From Candidatus Methanomethylophilaceae archaeon (lineage in GTDB: Archaea; Thermoplasmatota; Thermoplasmata; Methanomassiliicoccales; Methanomethylophilaceae): a stretch of DNA of 64,000 bases. The first letter of the stretch is position 1. Every line of letters begins with the position of its first letter. The DNA lies in assembly GCA_017524805.1 (NCBI GenBank), contig JAFXUX010000038.1, positions 1-64,000 of the forward strand. The letters are read 5' to 3'. A program made the translations under genes and the position numbers. Positions 6,661 to 57,822 of the stretch are shown one piece after another. The notes under the pieces were generated by a model. The model was not told the DNA's origin and did not search any database. It saw only the letters and a list, made by a program, of their open reading frames with translations.

Positions 6661-6681
6661 CGCAAAACACTACGCCTTCGC

Positions 6682-8914: not shown

Positions 8915-8924
8915 CATATAAAAT
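8915..8924 (+). promoter_or_regulatory. TATA box for paralogue 4
   Basis: CATATAAAAT lies about 17-22 bp upstream of the ATG at 8937, as expected for a leaderless or very short-leader archaeal transcript. Confidence 0.5.
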
Positions 8925-8936
8925 AGTAGATTCGGC

Positions 8937-11093: not shown

Positions 11094-11101
11094 TGGGGCC
11101 C

Positions 11102-11128
11102 GGCCCGATGCTTCTGTTGCGTCGGGCC
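11102..11128. terminator. Bidirectional terminator hairpin between convergent paralogues 4 and 5
   Basis: GGCCCGATGC and GCGTCGGGCC form a 10-bp stem (one G-U pair) around a 7-nt loop, in the 42-bp gap between two convergent genes. Confidence 0.7.
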
Positions 11129-11135
11129 CTCCCTT

Positions 11136-26798: not shown

Positions 26799-28178
26799 AT
26801 GGCAGCCCGCAGATATGTTGACGTTTTTGAGTCGTACGATCGTTTCACAGAGGGAGACAAGGTGCAGGAATCGTATTGGGATTACGATATCGTCCACAGC
26901 ACCGCAGTCAAGATGAAGGATCGTTATGAACTGGATTTCGGCGCCAACATAGTCCCGGAAGACCCAGACATGGTGGACAATCTTTTCCTGGCCGGAGTCG
27001 ACATGCTGCTTGAGACCGGGATCTACAACATAGATCTGGGCCGCGTCATGCACATCGATGAGGATGAGCTGTACGAAGGCATCAAAATGGCCCCCAGAAA
27101 ACTCAGCATCGGCCATGGCAAAGACAAGTGCAAATGCAAAGCCCGCGTGGGAAATTCCAAGAAAAGGCCTATAATCCAGGGGGGTCCGACCGGAGCCCCT
27201 CTGTCCGAGGAGATATTCATGTCCGTGATAGAGTCCTATGCGGATGAGCCCATGGTGGATGCCATCGTCAGCGGGGTCCTCGAGACCGTGGACGGCCATC
27301 AGGTCCTCACCAACACGCCCTGGGAGATCAAGGCCACCATGGCCGAGGTCAGATATGTCCGCGAGGCAGTAGCCAACTCAGGAAGGCCTGGGATGGGCAT
27401 CTAGGGCCCGCAGACTCCGCTCTCGCCCGACGGCCGTCTCGCAGCCGGGCTGGGTTCCAACGGCATGAGGATATGCGATCCCCACGAGTGCTCACAGCTC
27501 AACGAGCTCAAGATAGACATGGGGGCATTGAACATAATCTCCGGATGGCATTCCGCCGGGGATATAATCCTGATCGAGCAGATGCCGATGTTCGGAGGGT
27601 ATGCAGGAGGCGTCGAGGAGACCGCCATATGCGACGTGGCGACCACTCTCGCCTCATTCGCGGCTTTCAACGCCGACATACATCTCGACGGCCCGATCCA
27701 CATCAGATGGGGCACCACGTCCACCAGAGAGACAATGCAGGTCGCCGCACATGCCGCCGCAGCTCTGGATTACAACACCGACCTCCTTCTCGCCAACCAA
27801 TACTATACGATGGCCGGGCCTTGCACAGAGATGTGTCTCCTTGAGGTTGCCGCCCAAGCGATAGCCGATACAGCATCCGGAAGGGAACTCCTGTCGGGGG
27901 TGGCATCCGCCAAAGGAGTCGCCATCGACAAGGCCACCGGTTTGGAGGCGAGGATGCTCGGGGAAGCCTCGGCGGCCACCTGCGGGATGGAGATTCCGGA
28001 GGTAAACAGCATCCTCGACAAGATAATCTCCAAATACGAGCTGAATTTCTCTTCCGCGCCTCAGGGTAAGACCTACAAAGAGTGTTACAACGTCAACGAT
28101 GCCACCCCGCTGCAGGAGTATCTGAGCATCTACGATTCCGTCTTGGACACTCTCGCCGATTGCGGGCTCAGTTTCTGA
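26799..28178 (+). CDS. mtmB: Monomethylamine methyltransferase, pyrrolysine-containing
   Basis: 459 residues when TAG at 27402-27404 is read as pyrrolysine. The TAG is codon 202, exactly the known Pyl202 of MtmB, and the family sequence continues in frame after it (GPQTPLSPDG, SGWHSAGDIILIEQMPMFGGYAGG, DGPIHIRWGTTSTRET). The enzyme is a TIM barrel that binds monomethylamine on pyrrolysine and transfers its methyl group to the Co(I) corrinoid of MtmC. It ends in TGA, overlapping the tail of the convergent HAD gene by 11 bp. The pyl genes needed to make and load pyrrolysine are not in the window. Confidence 0.95.
27402..27404 (+). other. Pyrrolysine (amber) codon of mtmB
   Basis: In-frame TAG at codon 202. 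The downstream 60 bp are G/C-rich and could fold (a GCCCG...CGGGC pairing around 27430-27455) like the proposed PYLIS element, but I could not fold it. Confidence 0.93.
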
Positions 28179-36578: not shown

Positions 36579-39071
36579 ATGAAATCTGTTCTGGGAGACA
36601 TAATCATCAGGGAGATCTGGAAGGAGGAGCGCGAGGGTGTCTCCGATCTCAAATGCAGGATAGATATATCGGACAGGGACGACGATGGCGTCGAAACCGT
36701 CGAGACGAAGGAGATCAGGTTCTCGGTCCCATCCGAGTATTCCGAATACCTTCTCACGGAGAGGTGCGACGCATATGTCGTATTGCTGCTGAGGTACGCC
36801 GTGAGCAACGGATACAACATCAGGTCCGACATCCCCATCTCGAACGACCTCTATTACAATCTAAAAGAGCAATTCCTTCCGCCCTTCGTCAAGAACGACG
36901 GATACGCGGCCGACCTGATCCTCGAGACGGCCAGCAGCGTCGGAGGGGGCGAAGCGGTAGGCACGGGCCTGTCATGCGGCGTGGATTCCCTGTACACTGT
37001 GATGAGGATGAAAGATTATCCTGATCCCGAATTCAGGCTGACCCACCTGTGCATCAACAACGTGGGAGCTTTCAACGGCCTGTACAGGATGGAAGGCATA
37101 GACAAGGTCCGCAAAGGCATGTACGCCAACGCCCGCGCGGCGGCGGAAGAGATCGGTCTTCCCCTGATCGAAACGGATTCCGATGTCGATGACGTCTTGC
37201 ACCAGAACCATTACCTCACCCACTCATACACATCCGCCTTCGCTATTTTCTGCCTCAAAAAGCTGTGGAAATACTATTTCTATGCATCATCGGGCGTTGA
37301 TTGCATCACTGGGTTCAGCATCAGGGGGCATCTCATGTTCCCGCCGTCCAAATACGAGCTTCTGACCATGGACTGCCTGTGCACCCCAGCCATGAGGATA
37401 TATATCGACGCGCCGACGGTGGCCAGATACGATAAGACAGTTGCATTGGCCGATTATCCCGTGGCGCAGAGGCATCTCGTGTCCTGCACGTCCTCGTACG
37501 TGAATTGCTCGCGCTGCGACAAATGCATGAGGAACATCATGGCCCTGGATTCGGTGGGCAAGCTGGAAGGTTTCTCGAACATATACGATCTGGATCTCTA
37601 TCGCAATTTCAAGTACAGGTACATGTGGTATCTATATTCGAGGAGAGACGACCACTATTTCGAGCCGGTCTTCGAGAATTTCAGGGCCAAGGGCGACGAG
37701 GAGTTCGTTCGCACCGGCCAGATCTACGAGTCGATGGAGGAGTTCGACAGCGCCTGGAAGAGCGGCAACAAGGAGTGGGTGGCCGAGTGCTTCGAAAGGA
37801 TCAAAGGCTACGCCGACGCCGGTGACATGCATGCTGCATCCCGCATAGGCAGGGCCTACAATTATGGCGTCGGCGCGGAGCAGAACCGCGAGGAAGCCCA
37901 GAAGTATTGGGCGATAACTATCGACGCTTTGAGGCAGGAGATCGCCGACGGATTCAACACGTCCAGGATCAAGCTTTTCGACATGCTGTGGGCGACCGGC
38001 GAGGAGAAGTACTATCCCGAGATGATAGAGCTTTTGCAGCCGCTTCTGGACGCGGAGGATATGTCCGCCATAGCCCGCAGAGGGCGCATGAGCAGGGACG
38101 GAAGAGGTTATCCCAAGGATACCGACGATGCCGTACAATGGTTCAGGTGGGCGTACAGGAAGGATCCTGTATGGCTCCAGGAGTATTGCGGCCTTCTCCT
38201 GAGCTCCGGGAAAGAGGAATATTACCAGGAAGCCAGAGAGGTATGCCTCGAGCGCTGCGACAAGAGCGCCAGATACGCGTATGGATTCCTGGGCCGCATT
38301 TATCGCGACGGGAAAGGAGTTCAGAAGGATCTCTGCGAGTCGGCCAAATGGTTCGAATTGGCCGTGATCAACAACGTGGAATGGGCTCCTATAGAGTATT
38401 TCGATGTCCTTTGGACGTTCAACGATCGCATGTAGGATCTGAAGCTCAGGGATTTGGTTCGCGCCATGGCAGAGGGCGGCTCCGTCGCGGCGATGGGCCG
38501 TCTGGGCAAGGTCTACCATTACGGCCGCGGTGTGCCCAAGGATCTCCATCTGGCCCGCAGGTGGCTAAGGCGCGCCCAGGAGAGGGATTTCGTCTGGTTC
38601 CCGGAGTATTACGAGACCCTTCTGGCTTCGGACGAGAAGTTCCATGATGAGGCCTGCAAGAGGTGCATAGCTCTCTCGGACAAGGGCGTGAAGCATGCTT
38701 ACGTCTATCGGGCGCGCATGTATCGCGACGGGTTCGGCTGCGAGAAGAATGCCGACGAAGCCATCGCATGGTACAGGAAAGGCGTCTCGGAGGGCATGGT
38801 CTTGGCCGCGATGGAGCTGTTCGAGATATTCTGGGCCAATCCGTCCCCAGCCACGGACAAAGAGATGATAGACGCCATACTTCCGTTCGCGAACCGCGGA
38901 AGCCCCGGCTGCATGGGCCGTCTCGGCCGCGCTTATCACTACGGAAGGGGCGTCCCGGTGAATCTTGCGATGGCCGAGAGGTGGACCGCCAAAGCCTGCG
39001 AGAAAGATCCTGCGAGATGGAGCAAGGGCCTCGAGACGATAAGGCTCAAGAGAAAATCGGAAAAGCGCTGA
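36579..39071 (+). CDS. QueC-like PP-loop domain fused to Sel1 repeats, interrupted by one in-frame TAG
   Basis: 830 residues if TAG at 38433-38435 (codon 619) is decoded. The start at 36579 follows GGGGAG by 5 bp; an ATG at 36552 is in frame but lies before the predicted transcription start. Residues ~128-145 (GLSCGVDSLYTVMRM) are a PP-loop nucleotide-binding motif; residues ~302-316 (CTSSYVNCSRCDKC) give the C-x7-C-x2-C-x2-C zinc site of QueC-type enzymes. From about residue 400 there are Sel1/TPR-like repeats (AYNYGVGAEQNREEAQKYW, IYRDGKGVQKD). The TAG falls inside a repeat: FDVLWTFNDRM-TAG-DLKLRDLV aligns with FDMLWATGEEKYYPEMIELL earlier in the protein. Repeats continue to TGA, only 9 bp before the next gene. 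Function unknown; possibly activates or amidates a small molecule. Confidence 0.75.
38433..38435 (+). other. In-frame TAG within a Sel1 repeat, candidate pyrrolysine codon
   Basis: The sequence after it (38436-39071) is one long open frame of Sel1 repeats (KVYHYGRGVPKD, MYRDGFGCEKN, AYHYGRGVPVN) in the same frame as the sequence before it. No Shine-Dalgarno site or ATG suggests a new start immediately after the TAG. Decay by point mutation is the alternative. Confidence 0.6.
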
Positions 39072-39080
39072 GGGATAAGT

Positions 39081-41708
39081 ATGGATGGTACCGGCTCACA
39101 CGTGACGCTGCGCATCAGAGGGATACGCCGCGAGGATTCGGAAGAGGTTTCTCGCCTGGTTTTTTCGATAGATAAGACTATAGTGGAAAACAATGGTAGC
39201 ACTACAGTCAACTCAGAAACATTCCTGGAGGCCCCCACAGAATACGCTCCGTTCTTGGTCACAGAAAGAGCCGATGCCATCGTCGCTTTGCTGATAGGAT
39301 ACGCCAGCGGCAAAGGGTGCGAAATACAGTCTGACGTCCCGGTTTCCGAGGATTTCTATCACAATGTTATTGAGATTCTCCTTCCAGAATTGAATGATGG
39401 AATCACTCTGTCTTCCGAGTTGCTTCCTCCGCTTCCTAAGGGCAACTCTGTAGGTTCTGGGATGCAATGCGACGTCGATTCGATGCATGCGGCGATGAAG
39501 TATTCCGATTACAAGATCCAAAGGTTCAAGCTCACTCACCTGTGCACCAGCAATCTGGATTATTTAGGGGATGACTATAGTCTTACTGATGACACCGAAT
39601 GCTTCCTGAGCAGAGCGCGCGAGGTCGCCGGGGAAATCGGGCTTCCGATGATATCCGTCCGCACCAATGCATGCGAGGAGTTCCCGATCGGTTCGCAGGA
39701 CGCCCGCGTCTACGCCGAAGCTTTCATCGCGCTCTGCCTGAGAAAGCTTTGGAGATGCTATTTCATCCCGTGCTCCGAGGAATCAATTGGCTTTGCACCA
39801 TTCCTCATGTCTTGTCTGAGTTCCCCGGGATTGGAGCTGATCCCGGAAGGGCTGCGCATGTCCCGGTACGGGAAGATAGCGGGGATATCCGATTTCGCTC
39901 CGGCTCAGAGGCATCTTCTCTCGTGCCAGTCCGGAGGCGGCAATTGCGGCATCTGCGACGGATGTGCATTCGATATGCTGGCTTTGGATTCGCTCGGAAA
40001 GCTGGACCTGTTCTCCGAGACTTACGATATAGAATTTTATGGGGCGCACAGGGAACGTTATCTGAGGCAACTGGCCCATGAAAGGGACGATCCCAGATAT
40101 GTGCCCATATGCGCTTCGTTCTTGTATAAAGGCGATGCCCAGTATGTTTCTGCGGACGAATCCGAATCGCTGATAAGGAATTTCGATGCGCTATGGGCTA
40201 AGAACGATCCGGAATCGGATGCGGAGGCAGTGGCTTCCATAATGCCGCTGGCATCCGGGGACATCCGCGCCGCATATCGTCTGGCTGACGCGTACGCATC
40301 CGGAAGAGGAGTAAAGAAGAACCGCGAAAAGGAGCTTGGATGCCTCAGGTCCATCGCTGAAACATACAGGATGGAGATGGTCGACGGCTTCCCTTCGGGA
40401 TGCGATCTCTTCGACGTGCTGTGGAGGTCTGGCGAATCCGACTCGGACCTCTTGGATTCCGTGAGGCCGACGGCTGAAGCGGGCGATTCTTCCGCCTGCG
40501 TCCGCATGTCCAAGGCATTCGCCGAGGGGAGAGGGACCAAGAAGGATCCGGACGGTGCGATCTTCTGGATGGGGAAGGCTTTCGAGGCTGACCCGCCCGA
40601 ATATGCCGAGGATTATTGCGAGATGCTCATATCATCCCAGGATCCGGAGAAGCAAGCGGAGGCTGCGCGCCTATGCGAGAGCCAAGCCGCCAGCCTTCGG
40701 AACCCTAAGATGTGCGCGATGATGTCCGGTCTGTTCCGCGACGGAAAAGGGGTAGAGAAGAATCTCTCGGAAGCCTGCGGATGGATGGCCAAGGCCGCGG
40801 AGATGGACAGATCTTATGAGCTCGAATGGTGCAGGATGACATTGGAGCATGGCGATTCCCGTGCCAAAGCCAAAGCCGCCGAGGTCTGTCTCCGCGGCTG
40901 CGAGGAGCTTCAGAATCCGGATTACTGGACGCTCATGTCCGAGATATATCGCGACGGAATCGGAGTGAGGAAGGACATAGGAGAAGCGATCAGATGGATG
41001 AGGGAAGCGGTCGCCGTCAGGCCGTCCAGGCTGTCGTACGAATTTTTCAGGCTGCTCCAATCGTCCGACGATGAGAATAACCGCAGGGAGGCTTTCGAAG
41101 GCGCTACCGAGCGCTTCGAGAAGACCGGGTCCACGATGTATCTCGCGCTCATCGCCCGCGCATACCGCGACGGAAAAGGCACTGAGAAAGACATGGCTAA
41201 AGCGGTCGAGCTCATGAGGAAGGCATCCAAAGAATCGCCGTCCAAATACCTCAGGGAGTATTGCGAGATCCTCGTCGATTCCGACGATCCCAAGGACAAC
41301 AAGGAGGCGCTCAGAAGATGCGAATCCTTGTATTCGAAGACCGGGTCGGCTTTCAGCTGCAAGCTTCTGGCCCGCATGTACCGCGACGGGAAAGGCGTGG
41401 AGAAGGATCTGGACAAAGCCTTCGAGTGGATCGGAAGATACAGGGAAGCGGAAGGCTCCGATGAGCTGGGCTACTGCGAATTCCTTCTGAGCACTGGGAT
41501 GGAAAGCGCCTGCTCAGAGGCCTGGGAAATCTGCAATGAGCGCTATTCGGAGACAGCGGATCCCAAGTGCTGCGGACTCATAGCCCGCATGTACCGCGAC
41601 GGGAAAGGGGTTGGGAAGGACCGCGACAAAGCCATCGAATGGATGGAGAAGGCCTTCCTGGATGACCCCGCCGTTTGGGAAGCCGAATTCAACGAGCTTT
41701 TGGGATGA
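39081..41708 (+). CDS. PP-loop-derived domain fused to Sel1 repeats (paralogue, altered PP-loop)
   Basis: 875 residues, no in-frame TAG. Starts at ATG after GAGGGATAAGT, 9 bp from the previous stop, so it forms an operon with its paralogue. The N-terminal 330 residues match the paralogue (TERADAIVALLIGYASGKG versus TERCDAYVVLLLRYAVSNG), but the PP-loop is altered: GMQCDVDSM replaces GLSCGVDSL. The zinc site CQSGGGNCGICDGC is kept. From residue ~390 at least seven Sel1-type repeats follow (AYASGRGVKKN, AFAEGRGTKKD, LFRDGKGVEKN, IYRDGIGVRKD, AYRDGKGTEKD, MYRDGKGVEKD, MYRDGKGVGKD). Sel1 arrays bind protein partners. ATP binding by this copy is doubtful. Confidence 0.8.
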   Translation: MDGTGSHVTLRIRGIRREDSEEVSRLVFSIDKTIVENNGSTTVNSETFLEAPTEYAPFLVTERADAIVALLIGYASGKGCEIQSDVPVSEDFYHNVIEILLPELNDGITLSSELLPPLPKGNSVGSGMQCDVDSMHAAMKYSDYKIQRFKLTHLCTSNLDYLGDDYSLTDDTECFLSRAREVAGEIGLPMISVRTNACEEFPIGSQDARVYAEAFIALCLRKLWRCYFIPCSEESIGFAPFLMSCLSSPGLELIPEGLRMSRYGKIAGISDFAPAQRHLLSCQSGGGNCGICDGCAFDMLALDSLGKLDLFSETYDIEFYGAHRERYLRQLAHERDDPRYVPICASFLYKGDAQYVSADESESLIRNFDALWAKNDPESDAEAVASIMPLASGDIRAAYRLADAYASGRGVKKNREKELGCLRSIAETYRMEMVDGFPSGCDLFDVLWRSGESDSDLLDSVRPTAEAGDSSACVRMSKAFAEGRGTKKDPDGAIFWMGKAFEADPPEYAEDYCEMLISSQDPEKQAEAARLCESQAASLRNPKMCAMMSGLFRDGKGVEKNLSEACGWMAKAAEMDRSYELEWCRMTLEHGDSRAKAKAAEVCLRGCEELQNPDYWTLMSEIYRDGIGVRKDIGEAIRWMREAVAVRPSRLSYEFFRLLQSSDDENNRREAFEGATERFEKTGSTMYLALIARAYRDGKGTEKDMAKAVELMRKASKESPSKYLREYCEILVDSDDPKDNKEALRRCESLYSKTGSAFSCKLLARMYRDGKGVEKDLDKAFEWIGRYREAEGSDELGYCEFLLSTGMESACSEAWEICNERYSETADPKCCGLIARMYRDGKGVGKDRDKAIEWMEKAFLDDPAVWEAEFNELLG

Positions 41709-41710: not shown

Positions 41711-44700
41711 TCACTCCTCGGTCGGCATCAGATTACCGCCTTCCTCCAGGATCAGCCCGTCCTCCACGGCCAAGTCGATGGCCTTCTCGATCGTGGAGAT
41801 TACGTTGGCTCCGGGGCGTTTGAATCCCAAGGCTTTGCCGGCTGCAGAAGCGCATGAGAGCCTAGGAATCGAGACGGAAGCTTCCACGACGTCCAGGCAG
41901 GCGTTCATCAGCTCGATCAGCGGGATGCAATCTATGTCCCTGGAATCTGCGGTAGATTCGGCCGCTCTGTAGGTGCGCATTTTTCTGTCCGCGCCTTCCG
42001 CCCAGTAAGTGACGAAATCATCGCGGATGTCCGGGGAGAACTCGGAGCGCAGGTTGCGGATCAGAGCTTCCTTTTTGTTTCCCACAAGGCGCTTGATCCC
42101 GGTGCCTTTCCTGTATAGGGACAGCAGCAGCTCTTCGTTCACCGGGGATTCCATTGCGATTATCTTCCCGGCGATATCCCTGATCAGATCGCGGTCGGAC
42201 GTAGCGACATCCACGGGAACATCTTCGAATTGGAGGTTCAGCGGGACGTACGTTCTCCGCCTGGGTTCCTCCTCATCGGGTTCCGCATCGTCCACTGGCA
42301 TCTCTTCCTCGGCGCTTTCGTCCGGTGCCACTTGAGGACCGTCTGCGGGAGTATCCTCGGTAGCATCTTTCTGCGGCTCTTCCTCCGCCGGGACGTCGTC
42401 CGGGATGAGCTCTTCTCCGTCTTCCTCTGCCGCCACCGCGCGGTTGGCCAGGATGTCCTCAATCCTGTTCTCTATCTTCTTGAGGGTCAGCTTCTTGTTG
42501 AAGAACCAGTCCACGGACCACACGTGCATGATGTTCCATCCCAGCCTCACCAGGACATCGGATCTGGCGAATTCCCTGTCCCTGGTGTTCTCCGACTTTT
42601 TGTACGAGTCTCCGTCGCCGAGGATTCCCAAGATGTATTCCTGCGGGTTCTCCGGATCCACGACGGCCAGATCAACCCTGAACCCGGAGCTTCCGATTCC
42701 GAAATGCGATTCGTATCCTATCTCGCTGAGAGACTCGGCTATGTCCTCCATGATGGCGGACATGTCTTCGGCTGGCTTGGCATGGTCCTGGTCTCCGAAG
42801 CGCCCGTTGTTCTCGGCGAACTTCAGGAATTCCCTCATGCTGCGGACGCCGCTGCTCGAAGCCGGCGTGAGCTTGACGTCGGTGTATCTCATCGATGAGA
42901 ACACGACCATCTCGCATCTTGCGCGGGAGACCGCGACGTTGAGCCTGCGGCCTCCTCCGGGACGGTTGATCGGACCGAAATTCTGGACGACCGTCCCTTC
43001 CCTGGAAGGCCCGTATCCTATGGAGAAGAGGATGATGTCCCTCTCATCTCCCTGGACCGTCTCCAGATTCTTGATGAACATGCCCTCGGACATCTTCCCC
43101 AGCCTCTGCTGGAATCTCGGATGCTTAGATGTCATGTCATCCATGGCGTCCTCGATGCAGTTCTGCTGGCTTATGCTGAACGCGATTATCCCTATGCTCT
43201 CCCCTTTGTATCCCTTTGACATGACGCGCCTGTAAACCTCGTCGACGACGGCGGCAGCCTCTATGGGATTGCAGCGCCTTCCCTTATGGTATCTGCCCTC
43301 CCTGACGAAGCGCATGCCGACTTTGGTCTCCTGGTCGTTGGGGGACGGGAACGTGAGCATCTTTCCGTCGTAGAAGACCCTGTTGCTGAACGTGATCAGG
43401 CTCTCATGCCTGCTGCGGTAATGCCATTCCAGATAGGTCTGGGGCATGTTCAGCGCGAGGCAGTCTTCCAGGAAGCTTTCCATGTCTTCGATCTCCTCCT
43501 CGCTTTCCTCGGTCTCCATCTGCTTCTGGAAGAACCTGGTCGGAGGGAGCTGCTGCCTGTCGCCGGCGATCACCGCCGCTTTGCCTCTTCCCAACGTGCC
43601 TATGGCTTTGCTGGTGGTTATCTGCGAGGATTCGTCGAATATGACGATATCGAATTTGGGATAGTCCATGGTCAGATACTGGGACACGGACTGCGGGCTC
43701 ATCAGGAGGCAGGGGCACAGGCGGGGAAGCATATGCGGTATCTCTCCCAGGAGGGTCCTGATGGATTTCTTCATGCGTCCCGCGCTGACCGCCCTGTAAA
43801 CTTTTCCAGCTTCCGAATCGGGGATGGAGCTGTCAATGTTGCGCGGCACGTTCTTGTAGAGCCTGTATTTCAGAAGGCTCTTGTTTATCTCCGCATATTC
43901 GGAGTCCAGCTTCCTGAGGCGTTCGACGGTTCCCTCGAACGTAGAGGCGTTGAACATGCGCAGGGATTCCGACTCCTGGCGGCAGAGGTTTATCATCGTT
44001 TTGTACAGCGATCTGTAGGTCGAGTTCACCACGGCATTTGAGTCCATGCCGGACCTTATTGCATCGCACGATGCGCCCAGGCCTTCCTCCTCGAGCTTGG
44101 AGGCGTAATAGTTCCAGTTGGCCCAGTCGAAGACTCCGGCGAGATGCGGGCGGATGGATTCGCAATAAGCCCTGCATTTTTCCGGGAGCGAAATGTCCGC
44201 GTCGGTCTTCATCACGGATATCAGTTTGTCGCGGGCGGCCTCCCATCTTTCGACGGCGCTCTGATAGTCTTCCGCGCCACCGTTGGGCCCTTCCAGAGCC
44301 ATGCGCAGCTCATGCAGCTTGTCAGCGGATATCCCCACTGCTTCGGCGGCGGAAATCGTCTCGTTGGCGCGGACCAGCATATCCGAGAGGGACGCCTTCT
44401 CGGAGGCAATCCCAGCGGAAGCGGAGGCGACCTTTCCCGGGATCGAGGAAAGCGATCTGAAATCCTGGTTCACGGCAGAGATCAGGTCTGCGGTTGTGCC
44501 CAGAGACTCGAAGGCAACTCCTGGGCGGAGCACATTGGAGACGTCGGACATGAACTTCTTCTTGGCCGCGCTCTTGAACAGCATCTTCCCGTCGGCTTCG
44601 TGCCATCCTTTCTTTATGTTGTATCTGGAATCGAAATCGTAGACCTCCGGGCGCCATTGGGTCTCGATGCGATTCATGTCGGGCCCGATGGCTATCAGTT

Positions 44701-47641
44701 TGGAGCAGAACGATTTTACTTTCTCCGCCGACGAGCGGATGGCGCTGTTCGGAGGCAGCCATCCCGCTTCGGTCGCTTCAGAAGCCAGATCTGAGAGCTC
44801 GCCGGAATCCTTCAGCATTTTTGCCGCTTCGTCCTGGCGGACGTCCCTGGGATCCCAAGCTGCGAAGGCGTCGAATATGGAGTCCGAGAGCGAGACGATC
44901 TTCGGAACGACATCAGGTATGCGGGCTATGTTGGGATCCGAAGCGATCTTGGCGTCGGCGGACATGACTGTCGACACGATCCTTCCGGTCCGGTCCGTAT
45001 CTCCGTCTATCCCGGCCGCGGCTATCTTCGGCCCGACGGCATCCAGCGCGTCCGCCGCGGCCAAAGCCTCGTCCATCGCCTCTTCGATGTCGTATTGCAG
45101 GGAGGCGGCAGGCACGTCCGCGTGGATCGTCGCAAGGGCGTCCGTGTCGCACATGCTGGTGGCGATGCCGTAGGCCTGGCATGCCTTTATGATGTCGTCC
45201 TCCAGGTTCCCTACCGTCTCCGGTTTCATCCTCAGCGCGGTGTCGGTGGATATCCTGAGGTCTTTGGCTCCGGCGACGTTATGGGCCTCATAAAGAGAGA
45301 TGCATTCGTACGCGCTGAATCCCCACGCCTGCTTCCTGTGAAGGTCGGAGACGTAGGCATCCAGCTTCTCTTTGGTGGCGCTGAGCTTGGCGATGGTCTC
45401 CTCCAGCTTGGAGTCGTCGAATTCCTTGCACGGCTCCATCGCTTTCCTCAGCTGCTCCAGGACCTTAGTCTTCTCCGTCTTATCGGAATGGAGCTCCAGG
45501 CAATGGTTCCCGATGCCGATGCCATCCAGCCTTTTCTCGACGACGTCCAGCGCCGCTCTTTTCTCGGCCACGAACAGGACCGTCTTCCCGCGGTAGATCG
45601 AATCCGTGATTATGTTGGTGATCGTCTGCGATTTCCCGGTTCCCGGCGGGCCGTGCATGATGAAGGTCTTCCCTTCGCTGGCGGCTCTCACCGCTTTGAT
45701 CTGGGAGGAGTCTGCGGGGACGGTGAGGCATAGGCCGTACGGGTCCGCGTCCGCTTCCAATTCCGGGTCGGCGTGGTATATCCCGCCCGACACCATGGCC
45801 TCCACGACGGGGTTCTCCTTGAGCTTGCCCATGTTCTTCTCCAGGTCTTTCCACATGGCATACTGGCTGAACGAGAACACGCCCAGCGCGGCGCCGTCGA
45901 GGACTTCCCATCCCTCCAATCCTTCTATGCATCTGCGGACGTTCTGGGTGATCCTGTCGACGTTCAGGCCGCCGTCGTCCAAAGGAAGCGGATCTATCCC
46001 GGGGATGTTTATGTCGTATTCCTGGCGAAGCTTCTCGGCCAATGTGACGTTGAAAACGGTCTCCTCATCGTAAGGCACGACCACGTATCCCTTCTGCTTC
46101 TTGATGAGCTCGGCCGGGATGAGGATGAGAGGAGAGTAGCGGGGTATCCTGTCGGCTTTGCTCTCGAACCATCTGAGCACGCCTATGGCTATGAAGAGTG
46201 AGTTGCATCCGCTCTCTTCCATCTCTTTCTTGTACAGACGGTAGATGGATTTGAGCGAGGATATTGTGTCGGCCTCGCCGAGCGGGGTTCTTATCCAACC
46301 TCTGGACAGCTCATCCCCGAACGAGCCCGCATAGTTTCCGACGTAGGTCTCGGTCTCGAACGGCCTTTCCGAGTAGATCCCGGCGCCGTCCCAATCCTGG
46401 GGCTTCGGCATCAGGATGAACTGCGTCCCTTTGGAGAACGTCTCCCCGAACTTCGAGGTGTCCCCGACGAGCAGAGGGACCGCTTTGGCGCCGACTTTCA
46501 TGCTCACCAGCGGGTTCCTGGTGGTGATGTCGAGGAGGTCGCGCTTCCAGATGTCCACGCGGGTCAGCGCTCTGTCCTCGGCCGCCTCGTAAACTTCGCC
46601 GACCTCTTTGGGGGCGACGGATTGGGTATCGAATTCGTCCTTCTCGACGGTCCAGGCCCCATTCTCATATCTGCGGGTCGGGAGGGGTCTGATCGTCGGG
46701 CGGGATTTCTTTATGTCCACGGCGCAGATGAACGATTCAGTGTCCTCCAGGCGCATCAGGGCGGCTTCCGAGGCCACGTCGAAAGCGGCCGCGTGTCCAT
46801 CGCAGAGATATGTGCACTCGACAGCTCTGGCGTCGCGGTTGCGTATCAGACGCGTGATGGCTGAGCTGTCGATGGATGTTATGTCGGCCATGTGGTCGTC
46901 CACGAGCCAGAAACCTGCGAACGCATGGCCTTTGACCAGGAAGATGAACGTGTTGAGGCCGATGGATTCCAAAGCGGAGCAGTAGAGCGCCGATACGTCG
47001 ATGCATGTGCCTTCCCTGTCGGATACTACGGTATCTGCCAGGCGCACCCTTTGGCCTGATTCCTCGAAACCTGCCGGCGGCACGATGTATTTGATTCTGA
47101 GCTTCTGGATGGCGTCGTATACTGCGGCAGCCATCTCGGCTACCCTGTTCCTGTCGCCGCGATAGCCTTCGAGGGATGGGTCTTTGCCCCAGCTTCTGAG
47201 CGTCTCAGAGGCTGAATCGCGGATTTTAGCAAGGCAGGAAGCGTTGGGAGTGACGAAGGACGCTATGAGCTCCGGACTGTCCGGACCGGGCCAGTATTCG
47301 AACGGGAGGATCTCGGTGTCGCAGGACTCGGATTTGATGCTTCCGTCTTCGCCTTCCGCTAGCAAGGTGACGCGGCAGGGCATCGTCTCGGCGGCTTCCA
47401 GCAGGCGGGCGGGATCCAACGACACGTTGAAGTGCTCTCTGAGATCCAGAATCGTGCCGGCGGCGATCCCGTCGGCTTTGAACGAGATTTCCTTGATGAA
47501 AGGCGGATCCGATCTGAGCGTGAAGGTGATATTCTTCTCGTCTTCTTCGGCCTCCGCCGTCGCCGTAAGGACGGGGTTCATCCCATTCCTGTAGAGCACG
47601 TACCCTATCTTGCTGATTTCCAACTCGAGTTTCAGTTTCAT
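41711..47641 (-). CDS. Giant DUF4011-type superfamily I helicase with Vsr-like nuclease and DUF3320 (probable anti-phage protein)
   Basis: 1976 residues from the ATG at 47641 (MKLKLELEISKIGY), which overlaps the PLD gene stop by 4 bp. Order: N-terminal beta region; transglutaminase-like fold (~205-245: EGTCIDVSALYCSALE, KGHAFAGFW, with Cys, His and Asp); DUF4011-like region (~390-600, RVDIWKRDLLDITTRNPL); SF1 helicase with Walker A GPPGTGKSQT (~665), DESSQ (~1333), QGDERDIILFS and VAVSRAR; Vsr/DUF559-like endonuclease (~1640-1710: GSSGFRVDLAVVDP, GWNIMHVWSVDW); an acidic linker; a DUF3320-like region (~1815-1870) and a wHTH-like tail. This order resembles the candidate defence protein described as DUF4011-helicase-Vsr-DUF3320 (Hhe). 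Foreign-DNA destruction is inferred. Confidence 0.82.
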   Translation of the reverse strand: MKLKLELEISKIGYVLYRNGMNPVLTATAEAEEDEKNITFTLRSDPPFIKEISFKADGIAAGTILDLREHFNVSLDPARLLEAAETMPCRVTLLAEGEDGSIKSESCDTEILPFEYWPGPDSPELIASFVTPNASCLAKIRDSASETLRSWGKDPSLEGYRGDRNRVAEMAAAVYDAIQKLRIKYIVPPAGFEESGQRVRLADTVVSDREGTCIDVSALYCSALESIGLNTFIFLVKGHAFAGFWLVDDHMADITSIDSSAITRLIRNRDARAVECTYLCDGHAAAFDVASEAALMRLEDTESFICAVDIKKSRPTIRPLPTRRYENGAWTVEKDEFDTQSVAPKEVGEVYEAAEDRALTRVDIWKRDLLDITTRNPLVSMKVGAKAVPLLVGDTSKFGETFSKGTQFILMPKPQDWDGAGIYSERPFETETYVGNYAGSFGDELSRGWIRTPLGEADTISSLKSIYRLYKKEMEESGCNSLFIAIGVLRWFESKADRIPRYSPLILIPAELIKKQKGYVVVPYDEETVFNVTLAEKLRQEYDINIPGIDPLPLDDGGLNVDRITQNVRRCIEGLEGWEVLDGAALGVFSFSQYAMWKDLEKNMGKLKENPVVEAMVSGGIYHADPELEADADPYGLCLTVPADSSQIKAVRAASEGKTFIMHGPPGTGKSQTITNIITDSIYRGKTVLFVAEKRAALDVVEKRLDGIGIGNHCLELHSDKTEKTKVLEQLRKAMEPCKEFDDSKLEETIAKLSATKEKLDAYVSDLHRKQAWGFSAYECISLYEAHNVAGAKDLRISTDTALRMKPETVGNLEDDIIKACQAYGIATSMCDTDALATIHADVPAASLQYDIEEAMDEALAAADALDAVGPKIAAAGIDGDTDRTGRIVSTVMSADAKIASDPNIARIPDVVPKIVSLSDSIFDAFAAWDPRDVRQDEAAKMLKDSGELSDLASEATEAGWLPPNSAIRSSAEKVKSFCSKLIAIGPDMNRIETQWRPEVYDFDSRYNIKKGWHEADGKMLFKSAAKKKFMSDVSNVLRPGVAFESLGTTADLISAVNQDFRSLSSIPGKVASASAGIASEKASLSDMLVRANETISAAEAVGISADKLHELRMALEGPNGGAEDYQSAVERWEAARDKLISVMKTDADISLPEKCRAYCESIRPHLAGVFDWANWNYYASKLEEEGLGASCDAIRSGMDSNAVVNSTYRSLYKTMINLCRQESESLRMFNASTFEGTVERLRKLDSEYAEINKSLLKYRLYKNVPRNIDSSIPDSEAGKVYRAVSAGRMKKSIRTLLGEIPHMLPRLCPCLLMSPQSVSQYLTMDYPKFDIVIFDESSQITTSKAIGTLGRGKAAVIAGDRQQLPPTRFFQKQMETEESEEEIEDMESFLEDCLALNMPQTYLEWHYRSRHESLITFSNRVFYDGKMLTFPSPNDQETKVGMRFVREGRYHKGRRCNPIEAAAVVDEVYRRVMSKGYKGESIGIIAFSISQQNCIEDAMDDMTSKHPRFQQRLGKMSEGMFIKNLETVQGDERDIILFSIGYGPSREGTVVQNFGPINRPGGGRRLNVAVSRARCEMVVFSSMRYTDVKLTPASSSGVRSMREFLKFAENNGRFGDQDHAKPAEDMSAIMEDIAESLSEIGYESHFGIGSSGFRVDLAVVDPENPQEYILGILGDGDSYKKSENTRDREFARSDVLVRLGWNIMHVWSVDWFFNKKLTLKKIENRIEDILANRAVAAEEDGEELIPDDVPAEEEPQKDATEDTPADGPQVAPDESAEEEMPVDDAEPDEEEPRRRTYVPLNLQFEDVPVDVATSDRDLIRDIAGKIIAMESPVNEELLLSLYRKGTGIKRLVGNKKEALIRNLRSEFSPDIRDDFVTYWAEGADRKMRTYRAAESTADSRDIDCIPLIELMNACLDVVEASVSIPRLSCASAAGKALGFKRPGANVISTIEKAIDLAVEDGLILEEGGNLMPTEE

Positions 47642-48414
47642 CTGCCCATCCTCTTTTTGCTCAGCGCCAACTCCATCTTGGCGCGGTCGCCTTCCGAAAC
47701 CGTTTGAAGCGAAGGCGATTCCCATAGTTTATCGTATGCATCCCGCAGCTCGCGGAAAATGTCCGGCAAGTCGCTCTCCATTATGCGGATGCCCCATTCC
47801 TCCGCTGTCGTGAGGGCGCTTTTGGAGATGTTCGCCGAGCCTACGTATGCCTCCCCATTGCCGTTCGGAGAGGTGAAAATGAAGCTTTTCGCGTGTATGT
47901 GGTCCTCTGCGGTGGCATCGAACTCGAATTTCACTTCCGTATTGGGGAGCGAAGCCAATTCGATGACGGCTTCCGCCTCTGTGGAACCCATGAATGAAGT
48001 CGTTATGGTGCGTATTTTCGTTCCTTCTTCGGCTCTTTCCCGGAGCCAATCGATCATCAGGTTCAGCCCGGACATCTTGATGAAAGACACCACTATGTCG
48101 ATGCCATCCGCATGGGAGGCCGATTCTTCCAGAGCGTCGATCAATGCGAATCCGCATCCCGGGGTCACCGCAGAGCTGTGGGATGGGATCTCCGCGAAAT
48201 CGCGCTCGCTCTTCCTGATGCCAGCTCTTTTCCAGTTCTTTTTCGTTTTTGTAAATATTATAATCTTAGTTTTGTTCACGTTTTTCTTGCCCAGGAATTC
48301 TTCGGGCATGCATATCCCGCAAACTTTACCACTATCGCAGGTGTACTCTCCCTCACGTTTTTCACATATTATGCAGGGGTTCTTCACGCGGGGATACATG
48401 AGGGCGCATGCCAT
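47638..48414 (-). CDS. Phospholipase-D-type nuclease with N-terminal zinc finger
   Basis: 258 residues. Cysteines at about 14, 17, 26, 32 and 35 (CIICEKREGEYTCDSGKVCGIC) suggest a zinc-binding finger. The rest is a single PLD domain with the catalytic pattern H-x-K in DHIHAKSFIF (~172-180) followed by GSANISKSAL, as in bacterial PLD nucleases that act as dimers. Directly upstream of, and overlapping by 4 bp, the giant helicase gene, so the two make one operon and probably one defence system in which PLD cuts nucleic acid. Alternative start at the sixth codon (MYPRVKNPC). Confidence 0.8.
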   Translation of the reverse strand: MACALMYPRVKNPCIICEKREGEYTCDSGKVCGICMPEEFLGKKNVNKTKIIIFTKTKKNWKRAGIRKSERDFAEIPSHSSAVTPGCGFALIDALEESASHADGIDIVVSFIKMSGLNLMIDWLRERAEEGTKIRTITTSFMGSTEAEAVIELASLPNTEVKFEFDATAEDHIHAKSFIFTSPNGNGEAYVGSANISKSALTTAEEWGIRIMESDLPDIFRELRDAYDKLWESPSLQTVSEGDRAKMELALSKKRMGR

Positions 48415-49810: not shown

Positions 49811-51523
49811 TCAATCGCCAGATTCTTCCAGTTCCCTCAGGAATCTTTTTATTTCCTCCAGATCAGCATCATTCCAATCCGAATGTTTGCGGTTCAGAAG
49901 GGCCGGCGGGAATCTCATTATGTCTCCGTAGAGCGCTTCCATGATTTTCTCGCCGTTGTTGGGGCCGCTCAGAACGAGGTCCTCGAATTGAATATCTTTT
50001 ACCGGGAAGAAATCCGATCTGTCGAATAGTTTCCGCCTCGGGCGGGGGACGGGGTTGTCAAAGGTCAGAGCCACCGCATCTCCCTCGGAGCCTCCCATGT
50101 CTTTCGTGAAATTCTTTTTGGCCTCTTCATAGGTGCCAATTATTCTGGGGTCCTTTACCGGGCTGACCTTATTGGCCAGATCTTCTTTCGCCAGCGCGTC
50201 GATCTTCGCGCGCAATCCGGCTATGTAGTTTCTGTACTCTTCCCATCCTTCGTCATCCGAGGATCTCACGCCGTCGAAGATCATCACGTCTATATGCAGC
50301 ACTCTGGGGCTCACGTCTCTCATCCGGATCTGATGGCCGTAATTGATTCCGTTTCCCATCGAGCTGAGATATACGAATTCTTTCGTTTTCATTTCAGGGT
50401 CGTCTTCCAGCGCTTTTGCGAGTCTGTCGTAATCCTCGCGCATCATGTAGATGTCGACGTCGTCGTCCCACGGTATGAATCCTCCGTGGCGGGCGGACCC
50501 CAGCAGAGTCCCGCATGCGATCATGTAGTTTACGCCGAACTTCCTGCATTTGCCGTCCAGCTTTTTGAGCATCGCTCTGAGCCCTTCCTGGATGGTGGAG
50601 ATTCTGGAGTCGTCGATCTTTATCGACCTGAAGATTTCGCTTACGTTGTCTTTGGAAATCAGGCCCGCTTCAATGGCGGCATCAAGGGCTCCGTTGAGGG
50701 TGTCAGAGGCGTTTCTGCTGCTCAGAAGGCCGGACGTCCCGCATTCCATCATGGCGTCGATGACGGTCTGGAAGTCCTTTGCCATCTGTTTTTCCGGGCT
50801 CTCCGAATTCTTCAAGAAATCAGCGTATGACGCAGGCACTCTGAGGTTCGTTTCCATCAGGGCCAAGAACATGCGGTCGGCGGAGCGCTCACCTAAATAT
50901 TTGGCCGCTGCGATGTCGTCTTGGTCGAGCCGGCTTTTTTCCGCGGACTCCAGGGCGCCGTTCCCTTGGCGCATCAGCTCCAAAGCAAGCCATGGGAGCT
51001 CTTTTTTCCAGTTGGGCGGTAGCTCCCCGATGCGGCTCAGGATTTCTGCGGCCTTTTCCGGGTCTTTTTCGGTTCCGTTTCCGTGGATATGGGCGGACAT
51101 CAGGCGCAGCTGGGCGCATAACGAATCGGGATCCCGGGATTCCAGCAGGTATCTGCATGCCAGATTCCGGCAGACCGGATCGCCCGAAGAGGATGCGATA
51201 TCATAGAGCATGCAAGCCGCCGTCATGGATCCCAGATCCGCGGCGGATTTCATCCACGATATGGCTGCGATCTCGCTTCTTTCCGTTCCGATACCGTTGT
51301 TGTACGCTTTGGCCATGCGTATGATCGATTGGATGTCACCGGATTCCGCGAAAGGCTCTACCACGCGTAACGCTTCTTCTCTGCTTTCCGGATCATCGGA
51401 TGCGCGGAGGGCGTCGAAGAGTTCGGCAGCCGCTTCTGCAGAGCCGGCGAGTGCGTCGCGGCGCAGAATGTCCAGAGTCCCATGCATTTGGGCTGTATTC
51501 TGATCCTCAGCGTCTCCATCCAT
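49811..51523 (-). CDS. Sel1 repeats fused to LicD-family phosphotransferase (copy A)
   Basis: 570 residues, start supported by GGAGG with a 7-bp spacer. Residues ~55-160 are Sel1 repeats (AKAYNNGIGTERSEIA, SAHIHGNGTEKDPEKA). From about residue 310 it is a LicD-type nucleotidyltransferase-fold protein: GTLLGSARHGGFIPWDDDVDIYM (338-360) carries the catalytic DDD triad. LicD enzymes of bacteria transfer phosphocholine from CDP-choline to surface glycans; relatives transfer other phospho-groups. The LicC-like gene at 55517 fits such a pathway. Downstream of copy B on the same strand, separated by a hairpin. Confidence 0.85.
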   Translation of the reverse strand: MDGDAEDQNTAQMHGTLDILRRDALAGSAEAAAELFDALRASDDPESREEALRVVEPFAESGDIQSIIRMAKAYNNGIGTERSEIAAISWMKSAADLGSMTAACMLYDIASSSGDPVCRNLACRYLLESRDPDSLCAQLRLMSAHIHGNGTEKDPEKAAEILSRIGELPPNWKKELPWLALELMRQGNGALESAEKSRLDQDDIAAAKYLGERSADRMFLALMETNLRVPASYADFLKNSESPEKQMAKDFQTVIDAMMECGTSGLLSSRNASDTLNGALDAAIEAGLISKDNVSEIFRSIKIDDSRISTIQEGLRAMLKKLDGKCRKFGVNYMIACGTLLGSARHGGFIPWDDDVDIYMMREDYDRLAKALEDDPEMKTKEFVYLSSMGNGINYGHQIRMRDVSPRVLHIDVMIFDGVRSSDDEGWEEYRNYIAGLRAKIDALAKEDLANKVSPVKDPRIIGTYEEAKKNFTKDMGGSEGDAVALTFDNPVPRPRRKLFDRSDFFPVKDIQFEDLVLSGPNNGEKIMEALYGDIMRFPPALLNRKHSDWNDADLEEIKRFLRELEESGD

Positions 51524-51678: not shown

Positions 51679-53880
51679 TCATATTTTCGGGGTTCTCTTT
51701 GCAAGGAACGCTTTGATCCTTTTCAGATTGTAGTCTTTGCCTTTGACATGGTTGCGCATCATGTCTCCGGGGAACCTCATGGGAGACCCGTAAAGATTCG
51801 TCAGGACTTTCATCGGGTCGCGGGGCCCGGGGAGCATAATGTCCTCGAATTTCATGTATACCGGCGGGAACACTTCGTCGTATCTGAATATCTTCTTTTT
51901 GTGGGATACTCTGGGGTTGTCCATGGTCATCGCTACGGCGGTCCCGCCTTCTCCGCGCATATCTGATTCGAAAGATTCCCTGTAGCTCGCGTAGAGGTCT
52001 TTGATCCTCGTGTCTTCCAAGGGGTTGAGGCCTTTCTCTTTGTCTTCTTCGTTGAGGTCATCGATCATTTCTCTGAAGCTGTGGGCGTAATCGGAATATC
52101 TCTGCAATCCGGCTGGGTCGGCGGACTCGACGTAATCCAGCACCATGACGTCCAGGAACATGTTCGCGCCCTTCATCCTCATGTGGATGTGGTTGAACCA
52201 TTGGGTGGTATCGGCCTTGCTCTCATACAATCTGCTGTGTATCCTGAACGGAGAGTTTTCGTCCAGCACAGTCTTGAGCTTCTCAAAATCCTCGCGCATC
52301 ATGTAGTAGTCGATGTCGTCATCCCACGGGACGAATCCCCCGTGGCGATAGGCGCCCAGAAGCGTTCCGCAGGCGATCACATATTGGATTCCGTTGGCCT
52401 TGCAGATGTCGTCGAACGACTTCAACATCAGTTTGAGGACTTTATGGATGTTCTCCAGGTCGCTTTTGTTGATCCTCAGGGCTGAGAAAATGCTCTTAAG
52501 ATCATCCTCGGCAATCGCTCCAGCTTCCAAGGACGCTTCCAGCATCCTGTTCATCGTCCCGGATGCGTTTCTCGGGGTCAGAAGGTATTCATCTTCGAAT
52601 TCCACTAGTATGTCCAGGATGGTCTGGCAATCCTCGGCGATGAAGCTCTTGGGATCCTCGACGTTCTTTATCAGTTTTCCGTATGACGAATCGAGGCGGA
52701 GATTGTTCTCAATCAAAGCGGCTAAGACGTGTTCCTTATGGGATTCGACCAGTCTGGGCGCCCATGCCGGCATGTTCTCGGAGAAGTTAAGCTTCTTGAT
52801 GGACGAAATCATGTCGCCCTCTTGGTACGACATATACAGCGCCATTTCCATCAGATCTGACAGATAAGTCTCCCTGTCCAGCCCGGCAGTCAGGCTTACG
52901 GCGGCTTCTCTAATTTCAGGGTCGCTGCTGAGACAGCAAAGCTTGCCCAAACACACCCTTTCGTCTGGTTCCTCGACAGGGTCGTCGCTTTCTACCGCGC
53001 GTTTGGCCATGGCCTCTGCGGCTTCGGCATCTTTTTCCATGCCTATGCCCTAGTAATATGCTTTGGCGATGCGGATCATGGCGGATACGTTGCCAGATTC
53101 CGCGAAGTATTTAAGTGAAGGTATTATCGCTGCAGCTCCCTTGGGATTGGGCGCGCTGCCGACGGCAAGGTCAAACATGCGTACCGTATGCTTGCATGCT
53201 TCGTTGCGGGCAGATTTGAAATCGGAATTCAGATCCTGGATTTCTTTCAGATTCGCTTTGGCCCATGGAACGTCCTCTTTGTACGACAATATCGCCCATT
53301 TCTCGGCTTCGCTCAGATCCTTTTTGTAGCATTTGCCTCTGTAATACATCTTTCCGATGCGGGCCATAGCCCTAGGATTGCCGTTCGCGGCGGATTCCTC
53401 GGCTATTCTCATCATCTCGGAATTGTCATCGGAATCTCCCAGCCTCCAATAGATATCGACCAGAGTGTTGCTGACGAAAAAGTTGCTCAGGATGTCCGAA
53501 TCGTGCATCCAATCTGCCATCACGCGAAGCGCTTCTTTGCTGGCGCCACGGCTTTCAACCAATTTTCTTACGGCTTTCAAGCTGTCCGTGTTCTTTTCCT
53601 CTATTTTGGAGCAGACAATCGGAACGATGCGTTCGGCCATCTCTTTGTCGATAGTCGCAGGCAAGTTTTGCATAAGCATGCATGCCGCATCGAAGCCCTC
53701 TTCCGGGTGTTCGGATATGAGTTCGCACACCTTCTACTCCTTGAGATCGAATCTGGTGTAATATGAGTATTTCAGCTCGTCGGCCAGTTGGGAGAAATCA
53801 CCTGATTCGGCGGTTAAGATGGCTTTTTTCAATCCATCGCAGCTTCTGTTCGAAGCGTCTTTTCTTATGATGTCAGTCAT
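51679..53880 (-). CDS. Sel1 repeats fused to LicD-family phosphotransferase (copy B), interrupted by two in-frame TAG codons
   Basis: 733 residues from ATG at 53880 to TGA at 51679 if TAGs at 53734-53736 (codon 49) and 53050-53052 (codon 277) are decoded. The three pieces share one frame. Around the second TAG, IAKAYY-TAG-GIGMEKDAEAA matches copy A's MAKAYNNGIGTERSEIAA residue for residue, so it lies inside a Sel1 loop. The first lies in a helical N-terminal region (TRFDLKE-TAG-KVCELISEH). The C-terminal LicD domain is intact: GTLLGAYRHGGFVPWDDDIDYYM (505-527). It should transfer a phospho-group to a surface glycan. A TATA box (ATTATAA near 53943) precedes it. Either amber codons are read as pyrrolysine or the gene is decaying only through TAGs. 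Confidence 0.75.
53050..53052 (-). other. In-frame TAG within a Sel1 repeat of copy B, candidate pyrrolysine codon
   Basis: Codon 277. The flanking residues align without gap to the intact paralogue, where the same position is asparagine (AYNNGIG versus AYY-TAG-GIG). Confidence 0.62.
53734..53736 (-). other. In-frame TAG near the N-terminus of copy B, candidate pyrrolysine codon
   Basis: Codon 49. Upstream, 48 in-frame codons lead back to an ATG at 53880 with a TATA box farther upstream. A GTG six bases after the TAG could serve as an alternative start, so this site is weaker evidence than the one at 53050. Confidence 0.5.
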
Positions 53881-54240: not shown

Positions 54241-55512
54241 ATGGAATGCCTTCTTATCCTAGGTGGGAACTCCGCTACAGCTGGCCTTGTGACGATGGCC
54301 AAGTCTATGGGTGTCAGAACGGTGGTCGTGGACAAAAATCCTCACGCTTACGCCAAAAAGTTCGCTGACGTGCCATACGACATCGACGGCACCGATATAG
54401 ATAGCATAGTGAGGATAGCCAAGAAGGAAAAGGCGGACGGCATCATGTTGGGCGCTGTCGAGGAACTCATGGACACTTATCAGAAGGTGTGCGATGCCCT
54501 TGGGATGAGATGCTATGCGACGAAGGAGCTCTTAGATCTGTTCTCGGACAAGAGCGCATTCAAGAATGCATGCGTCGCAAACGGTGTGCCTACGACCGAA
54601 GGCGGGCTTTATGGCATCGCCGACGTCGATTCTTTCAGGTCCAAGAAATTCCCGCTGATCGTGAAGCCGGTCGACAGCAGCGGATCCCGCGGCATCAGGG
54701 TATGCTACAAGTTCGAGGAGCTCCGTTCCGCGGTCGAATCAGCCCTGTCATTTTCCGAGCTCGACAAAGTCCTCATAGAGAGGTACATGACCGGGCAGGA
54801 GGTCGTGGTCTATTACGCGTTCCAGGACGGGGAGCCAACGCTGCTGGGAATCTGCGATCGCTACACTAACCATGAGCGTGCCTCCAGCGCGCAGCTTCCG
54901 ACCTCATATGTGTTCCCATCCAGATTTACGAAAGGGTACATGGCATCCGAAGACTCGGCGGTAAGAGAGATGTTCCGCAAGATCGGAGTCAAGAACGGGG
55001 TCATGTTCCTTCAGGGATTCGCAGATGACGACGGGACGCTCAGGTTCTACGAGTCTGGATATAGGCTGAACGGCGCACAGGAGCACCACATCTTCGCCAA
55101 TCTCTGCGGCATAGACGCGAAGAGGATGATGGTCGACTTTGCTCTGCACGGCAGGATGGCCGATTTCAGCATTTCGGAGAAGGCCGACCCTCTTCTCGGC
55201 GGCCGCTTCGGATGCAAGCTGTCCGTCCTCATGGAGCCGGGAACGATCGCCAAAGTCGTCGGATTGGAGGAGGTATCGAAGATGGAGGGCGTGGTATGCG
55301 TCAATCCCAGCTATGATATCGGGGAGACGGTGAAGGATGCCGGCACGCTCAAGCAGATAGTATGCAGGTTCTTCATAGTGGCCGATACGATATCAGATCT
55401 GAAGGTCCGCATAGACAAGATTTATGATGCGTATGACGTTATCGATGGGAACGGCGCGTCTTTGTTGATGGAGCAGTTTGACACGAGACTTCTATTGGAG
55501 AATTACAGGTGA
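54241..55512 (+). CDS. ATP-grasp carboxylate ligase (carbamoyl-phosphate-synthase-like)
   Basis: 423 residues. N-terminal Rossmann-like pre-ATP-grasp domain (LLILGGNSATAGLVTMAKSMG), then the ATP-grasp with FPLIVKPVDSSGSRGI, VLIERYMTGQEVVVYY, and the Mg-binding end FYESGYRLNGAQEHH. These enzymes make an acyl phosphate and join it to an amine, thiol or alcohol. Four bases separate its stop from the LicC-like gene, so they form an operon. It may build or attach the group that the LicC/LicD proteins handle; the substrate is unknown. Confidence 0.82.
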   Translation: MECLLILGGNSATAGLVTMAKSMGVRTVVVDKNPHAYAKKFADVPYDIDGTDIDSIVRIAKKEKADGIMLGAVEELMDTYQKVCDALGMRCYATKELLDLFSDKSAFKNACVANGVPTTEGGLYGIADVDSFRSKKFPLIVKPVDSSGSRGIRVCYKFEELRSAVESALSFSELDKVLIERYMTGQEVVVYYAFQDGEPTLLGICDRYTNHERASSAQLPTSYVFPSRFTKGYMASEDSAVREMFRKIGVKNGVMFLQGFADDDGTLRFYESGYRLNGAQEHHIFANLCGIDAKRMMVDFALHGRMADFSISEKADPLLGGRFGCKLSVLMEPGTIAKVVGLEEVSKMEGVVCVNPSYDIGETVKDAGTLKQIVCRFFIVADTISDLKVRIDKIYDAYDVIDGNGASLLMEQFDTRLLLENYR

Positions 55513-57817: not shown

Positions 57818-57822
57818 TCGCT

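Follow-up and report, generated by a model that had tools for sequence, protein, structure and literature searches.

The stretch of DNA analysed here (termed the window; 64,000 nucleotides) belongs to a 1.95-Mb genome (G000) from a Methanomethylophilaceae archaeon of rumen type and contains two adjacent paralogous genes, termed copy A and copy B, in which a QueC-like domain is followed by an array of Sel1 repeats. The pair and its recognizable elements are as follows:

36579-39071, plus strand: gene 1 (copy A), whose first 370 or so residues are a QueC-like PP-loop/zinc domain, followed by a Sel1 array
36966-36992, plus strand: PP-loop GLSCGVDSL, copy A residues 130-138
37347-37358, plus strand: SKYE, the aromatic-acidic site, copy A residues 257-260
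37485-37526, plus strand: predicted zinc site of copy A, C303-x6-C310-x2-C313-x2-C316
37692-39068, plus strand: Sel1 repeat array of copy A, modelled as an all-helical solenoid with a pLDDT near 90 over its whole length
38433-38435, plus strand: in-frame TAG, copy A codon 619, most likely pyrrolysine
39081-41708, plus strand: gene 2 (copy B), the paralogue, with a broken PP-loop, its zinc cysteines kept and a longer Sel1 array
39459-39485, plus strand: damaged PP-loop GMQCDVDSM of copy B, from the sequence
39924-39965, plus strand: zinc cysteines of copy B, all four kept, from the sequence

The sequence-only reading of this DNA had ended the first protein at 38435, but the reading frame runs on through the in-frame TAG: with this codon translated, copy A is an 830-aa protein that starts with the ATG at 36579 and stops with a TGA at 39071, and the frame behind the TAG is open and carries Sel1 repeats. 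The TAG occupies the identical codon in the sister species (G061, locus L033) and is replaced by CAG, GAC or TAC in other relatives. Between these two species, the domain of copy A has a dN/dS of 0.061, and its repeats have 0.065 upstream and 0.063 downstream of the TAG (dS for these segments, 0.8-1.2). The genome encodes pylD (195 bits, above cut-off) as well as a PylC-like match that falls below cut-off, and the window holds mtmB (monomethylamine methyltransferase; 26799-28178, plus strand; 724 bits to PF05369), a known pyrrolysine gene whose internal TAG at codon 202 is an independent sign of TAG decoding in this genome. Given the conserved codon, the equally strong purifying selection downstream of it and a genome that encodes pyrrolysine, we take gene 1 to span 36579-39071, with codon 619 most likely decoded as pyrrolysine. 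All 32 genes called in the window stop at TGA, and three of them (mtmB, gene 1 and one LicD-Sel1 gene) have an internal TAG, although this gene set presupposes read-through in those three and is thus a consistency check and not a proof. In the model of all 830 residues (pLDDT 88), the solenoid is unbroken through residue 619, as expected given that the alignment includes orthologues without the TAG. In the same order, proteins other than methyltransferases have been proposed to contain pyrrolysine, e.g., Cas1 of 'Ca. M. alvus', and TAG makes up only 1.6% of stops there (PMC4153887).

Further in-frame TAG codons were seen in the LicD-Sel1 gene at 51679-53730 (minus strand; TAG at 53050-53052), which automatic calling would split; in copy B of G057 (L034:10504-13206; codon 190, within the PP-loop domain); in loci L024 and L027; and once each in L077:8345-10678 (minus strand) and L078:10477-12759 (plus strand).

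Both the PP-loop and the long Sel1 array that had been read into the first protein are present, the array matching PF08238 with an E-value of 9.8e-29 (6.3e-38 in copy B), and Sel1-type repeats were the only matches above cut-off in a Pfam scan of the two copies. The cysteine cluster is also there, but its spacing is C-x6-C-x2-C-x2-C and not the C-x7-C-x2-C-x2-C first given. Among 27 domain copies from eight genomes, the PP-loop form [ST]xGxD[SA] is kept in 22 and all four cysteines in 26, and dN/dS in the domain of copy A is 0.06 between species at dS of about 0.9, which argues that neither the PP-loop nor the cysteine cluster arose by chance. Wherever the [ST]xG core is unbroken, as it is in 22 copies, an aromatic residue is followed by an acidic one (Y-[ED]; displaced by one position in two of these copies), and the acidic residue is missing from all five copies whose core is broken; since these five belong to only two lineages, the co-loss corresponds to about two events rather than five. 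From this co-loss, the Y-[ED] site is likely to be catalytic or substrate-binding.

The structure prediction and fold search that had been proposed along with the sequence-only reading recovered a PP-loop fold. An AlphaFold2 model of copy A residues 1-375, built from 12 sequences, reached a pLDDT of 87.5 and a pTM of 0.88. Foldseek found nothing significant for it in the PDB (best E-value 0.087), and sequence searches of solved structures, with a single sequence and with a profile, returned nothing relevant. We ran VIA-align, which usually yields a Z of 7-8 where there is no clear match, on the Foldseek candidates: QatC (9y02) ranked first (Z 14.5, rmsd 5.0, 306 residues) and Cap9 (9nto) second (Z 12.3, rmsd 3.0, 171 residues), and other PP-loop enzymes scored Z 8-11 (TtuA, TilS and LarE, Z 9-11). 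For this predicted model the best Z is thus well above the no-match level. The structure of QueC itself was not among the 50 VIA-align matches listed, which is no argument against a likeness to QueC. In the alignment with QatC, model residues 3-375 correspond to residues 2-454 and take in parts outside the QueC core; the earlier statement that the rest of the domain is unlike QueC was correct, but the domain resembles QatC over its whole length.

QatC belongs to the qatABCD anti-phage system (PDB 9y01/9y02) and shares with copy A, besides the fold and the extensions that flank the QueC core, the PP-loop and a four-cysteine zinc site. The two are only about 10% identical, however, their zinc spacings differ (C-x19-C in QatC, within C-x19-CGxCxxRR, versus C-x6-C), and of the two only copy A has the Sel1 fusion. 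Cap9, of type IV CBASS, is likewise similar through the QueC-like core, but it consists of a minimal core and has a CD-NTase beside it, whereas copies A and B are large multidomain proteins without one.

Within the archaeal family, the domain occurs in eight of 102 genomes, seven of them from the same genus, with copy numbers that go up to at least five each. By tblastn we detected hypothetical proteins encoded on Paracoccus plasmids (5e-40) and, with weaker scores, proteins of Gloeothece, Azospirillum and Nostoc, and through these bacterial relatives we reached Priestia, Gemmobacter, Pseudobutyrivibrio and haloarchaea. In hhalign comparisons, the archaeal set matched the bacterial/haloarchaeal set at E 3.6e-44 (4.3e-22 when two bridging sequences and two near-duplicates were omitted), and the latter matched canonical QueC with 94% probability (E 1.3e-7) from the PP-loop to the zinc site; the archaeal set compared directly with canonical QueC gave a weak match, of 10% probability, over the PP-loop only. 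The relatives carry FSGGVDS and NCGxCEKC, the SCGVDS of copy A is an SGGxDS-type PP-loop, and the four cysteines, which form a predicted zinc site, align with those of QueC through the bacterial relatives. This chain of profiles, together with the QatC and Cap9 fold matches, bears out the description of a QueC-like PP-loop and zinc site fused to Sel1 repeats. Some copies of the domain have no Sel1 match, so the domain does not need the repeats.

QueC (PF06508, 7-cyano-7-deazaguanine synthase) shares with copy A the PP-loop Rossmann core and the C-terminal four-cysteine motif, but copy A has an extra N-terminal domain and canonical QueC is encoded separately in the genome (C8:120200, 245.9 bits). 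YxQxHxxE, VPxRN and YPDC are the catalytic motifs of QueC (PMC13329287). In the alignment of the 27 copies the first two are absent and YPDC is not kept as such: what persists is the acidic residue that follows an aromatic one, and no residue-level mapping of this Y-E site to the YPDC of QueC could be fixed. Copies A and B do not match PF06508, no tested member of the group reaches its cut-off (best single relatives, E 0.0059-0.066), and the QatC model (PADLOC PDLC02214) has no match in G000, neither copy included, and one bacterial relative at E 0.071. Since neither model matches the copies, these represent a separate branch, and on the profile comparisons both are members of an uncharacterized branch of the QueC superfamily that they share with bacteria and haloarchaea. 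No relative was found in viral contigs and phage records. In agreement with the expectation that the fusion family was new, no matching description of it turned up in the literature searched, and a 2026 survey of PF06508 is unlikely to have sorted the branch, since no tested member reaches the cut-off.

As had been proposed, the second gene has a damaged PP-loop. A tree separates copy A, in which all PP-loops are intact, from copy B, whose loop is broken in G000, G061 and G057, intact in G068 and G070, and altered from Ser to Ala at its end in G069. In one species pair (dS about 1), dN/dS was 0.17 for copy B versus 0.06 for copy A, and in another it was 0.26 versus 0.13. By these comparisons copy B is the faster-evolving paralogue and the damage to its PP-loop is lineage-specific: the description of a catalytic/pseudo-catalytic pair fits the source species but not the genomes in which the second copy is intact (G068 and G070). 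The two copies are adjacent and retained together in at least five genomes.

The genes on the far side of the pair had been read as a defence operon with which the pair might form a nucleotide-based modification or signalling system. They are as follows:

41711-47725, minus strand: ProA, a DUF4011 helicase with an MTES_1575 nuclease domain (NCBIfam anti-phage model, 1614.7 bits, cut-off 1500)
47638-48414, minus strand: a PLD-like protein that travels with ProA (profile matches)

ProA lies on the opposite strand and is convergent with the pair, and hence is not in its operon. It adjoins the pair in all six pair-carrying genomes (G000, G057, G061, G068, G069 and G070), but PLD and ProA occur without the pair in G058 and G012, ProA is above cut-off without any QueC-like match in G012, G058 and G019, and in G062 it stands beside the same asd gene on a contig with no QueC-like gene. 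None of the other paralogue loci that were fetched contains ProA. The two units are therefore separable, although their shared locus would allow cooperation, and from this distribution we judged ProA and PLD to be an independent unit. Literature searches on ProA, and on pyruvyl transferases together with QueC, produced nothing usable.

The window also holds the following genes of glycan-related types:

2225-13265, both strands: five PS_pyruv_trans proteins of 709-759 aa, the first a Fer4/FrhB-PS_pyruv_trans fusion
49811-51523 and 51679-53730, minus strand: two LicD-Sel1 genes (profile matches)
54241-55512, plus strand: an ATP-grasp ligase, whose homologue adjoins a QueC-like gene in loci L037 and L038
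55478-56263, plus strand: a MobA-like/LicC-like nucleotidyltransferase, whose homologue adjoins a QueC-like gene in the same two loci
56492-60378, plus strand: two further LicD genes (profile matches), making four LicD genes in all

The pair itself is not operonic with any of these glycan genes, its nearest neighbours being an aminotransferase and ProA, and the five pyruvyl transferases, which are five of the six PF04230 matches in the genome, form a cluster that counts as one event. Elsewhere, a PS pyruvyl transferase adjoins or lies a few genes from a QueC-like gene in seven lineages (Gloeothece, Azospirillum and Priestia, two each; Gemmobacter; Pseudobutyrivibrio; and archaea G342 and G321), this and the other neighbour figures being raw counts from few lineages with partly incomplete plasmid annotation; in G321, of the same order, it lies 7 bases upstream of the QueC-like gene. 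Glycosyltransferases recur beside QueC-like relatives, ATP-grasp proteins occur near the QueC-like gene in Gemmobacter, Halorientalis, L037 and L038, and the neighbours of haloarchaeal relatives include ATP-grasp, a sulfatase and a polysaccharide deacetylase. Within the genus, a nucleotidyltransferase is found near the QueC-like gene in L036-L038 and LicD in L038; a hexapeptide acyltransferase is fused to it in L077 and L078 and adjacent in L065 and L076; and a capsule PGA_cap gene adjoins it in L077.

The fusions in L077 and L078 combine a degenerate QueC-like domain, Sel1 repeats and the hexapeptide acyltransferase in a single frame, and in L072:12600-14055 a QueC-like Sel1 gene precedes genes for a cytidylyltransferase and a PP-loop protein of the asparagine-synthase type. 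A candidate PS-pyruvyl-transferase/QueC fusion in Paracoccus, raised by the motif SIGVRGE, was rejected: a profile built for this check gave no match to the protein, whereas some shuffled versions scored weakly.

The interpretation we favour, at about an even chance, is that the QueC-superfamily branch to which the pair belongs acts in cell-surface glycan assembly, as an ATP-dependent, adenylating and amide-forming ligase/amidotransferase. We prefer it because relatives repeatedly have glycan genes as neighbours, because characterized members of the superfamily hand an activated acid to an amine, QueC and Cap9 both activating the acid with ATP (PMC13279940, PMC13329287), and because WbpG, a superfamily PP-loop enzyme of surface-polysaccharide synthesis, provides a functional precedent: WbpG-type N-sugar amidotransferases of O-antigen synthesis form cluster 5 in PMC13329287. 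By its described motifs WbpG is set apart from copy A (CxxC-x6-CxC, in another motif order, versus C-x6-C-x2-C-x2-C). Each catalytic copy would bind ATP with its PP-loop and adenylate a carboxylate, e.g., a pyruvyl-ketal, a uronate or another acid group on a glycan or glycan precursor, releasing pyrophosphate; the adenylated acid would then pass to an amine to form an amide. In QueC this partner is ammonia, in Cap9 it is a protein N-terminus, and in WbpG, as annotated, it is a sugar. The zinc site would be structural, and the Sel1 array, which LicD and acyltransferase proteins of these genomes carry as well, may be a lineage-specific scaffold holding partner enzymes or substrate. Copy B would be a diverging paralogue, no longer able to bind ATP in one sub-lineage and perhaps retained as a partner subunit in contact with copy A. 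A bolder version, which we offer tentatively, is that this QueC-fold branch of bacteria and archaea places amide-linked groups, perhaps of the deazaguanine type, on surface glycans or on proteins anchored to glycans, and that in rumen methanogens it has pyrrolysine-containing Sel1 scaffolds and a pseudo-enzyme partner.

Because the top fold match is QatC, a protein-modifying role retains some probability, whether or not it serves defence. Proteins are the typical binding partners of Sel1 arrays, and in a somewhat unlikely alternative outside immunity the arrays would recruit a protein or peptide for copy A to adenylate or acylate at the N-terminus or on a side chain, with copy B as the pseudo-enzyme subunit presenting it; the adjacency and co-retention of the two copies would fit. 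QatC and Cap9 do act on, or bind, protein partners, the reaction of QatC itself being not yet settled (PMC13279940). However, bacterial relatives and that of G321 have no Sel1 matches, and the start of copy B shows no MGxS-type tail conserved between species. The same fold match, and the presence of ProA next to the pair in every pair-carrying genome, would also suit a Qat-like immune module, in which the N-terminus of a protein is modified by copy A, with copy B or a further Sel1 protein perhaps serving as substrate or sensor, and the ProA helicase-nuclease and PLD act downstream against viruses. We regard this as improbable: the adjacency reflects a single orthologous locus in one genus, with the genes on opposite strands, and the QatC model and zinc signature do not fit. 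As to a qatABCD-like operon, the scanned neighbours (ProA, PLD, asd, LicD and others) include neither KAP nor TatD, as sought for QatA and QatD, and no MGTS start like that of QatB is conserved among the partner genes, although a diverged QatB, for which there is no Pfam model, could escape. The occurrence of ProA and PLD without the pair led us to drop a joint defence system with ProA as the leading idea; as most paralogues of the domain also lie away from ProA and relatives lie in glycan loci, the defence-linked system first envisaged is not supported as a joint system.

We rate the remaining alternatives lower still. A second synthase converting 7-carboxy-7-deazaguanine to preQ0 for archaeosine would agree with the shared superfamily, the QueC-like zinc placement and an aromatic-acidic pair before the zinc site that could mimic YPDC, but it is highly improbable in a genome that has canonical QueC, for proteins that lack YxQxHxxE and VPxRN and do not match PF06508. 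We give equally little credence to decaying genes without present function: the in-frame TAG of gene 1 and the broken PP-loop of gene 2 might suggest decay, but between species at dS of about 1, dN/dS is 0.06 on either side of the TAG in gene 1 and 0.17 for gene 2, and mtmB has an in-frame TAG as well.

The locus serves as a warning that automatic gene calls in pyrrolysine-using archaea truncate such genes at the TAG. Bacterial members of the branch, such as those of Azospirillum and Priestia, offer a tractable route to its chemistry. If the glycan ligase that we favour is real, amide-linked glycan chemistry would be new for the QatC-like architecture of the superfamily, and a branch outside immunity that combines the QatC fold with ties to polysaccharides would suggest where the architecture of QatC originated.
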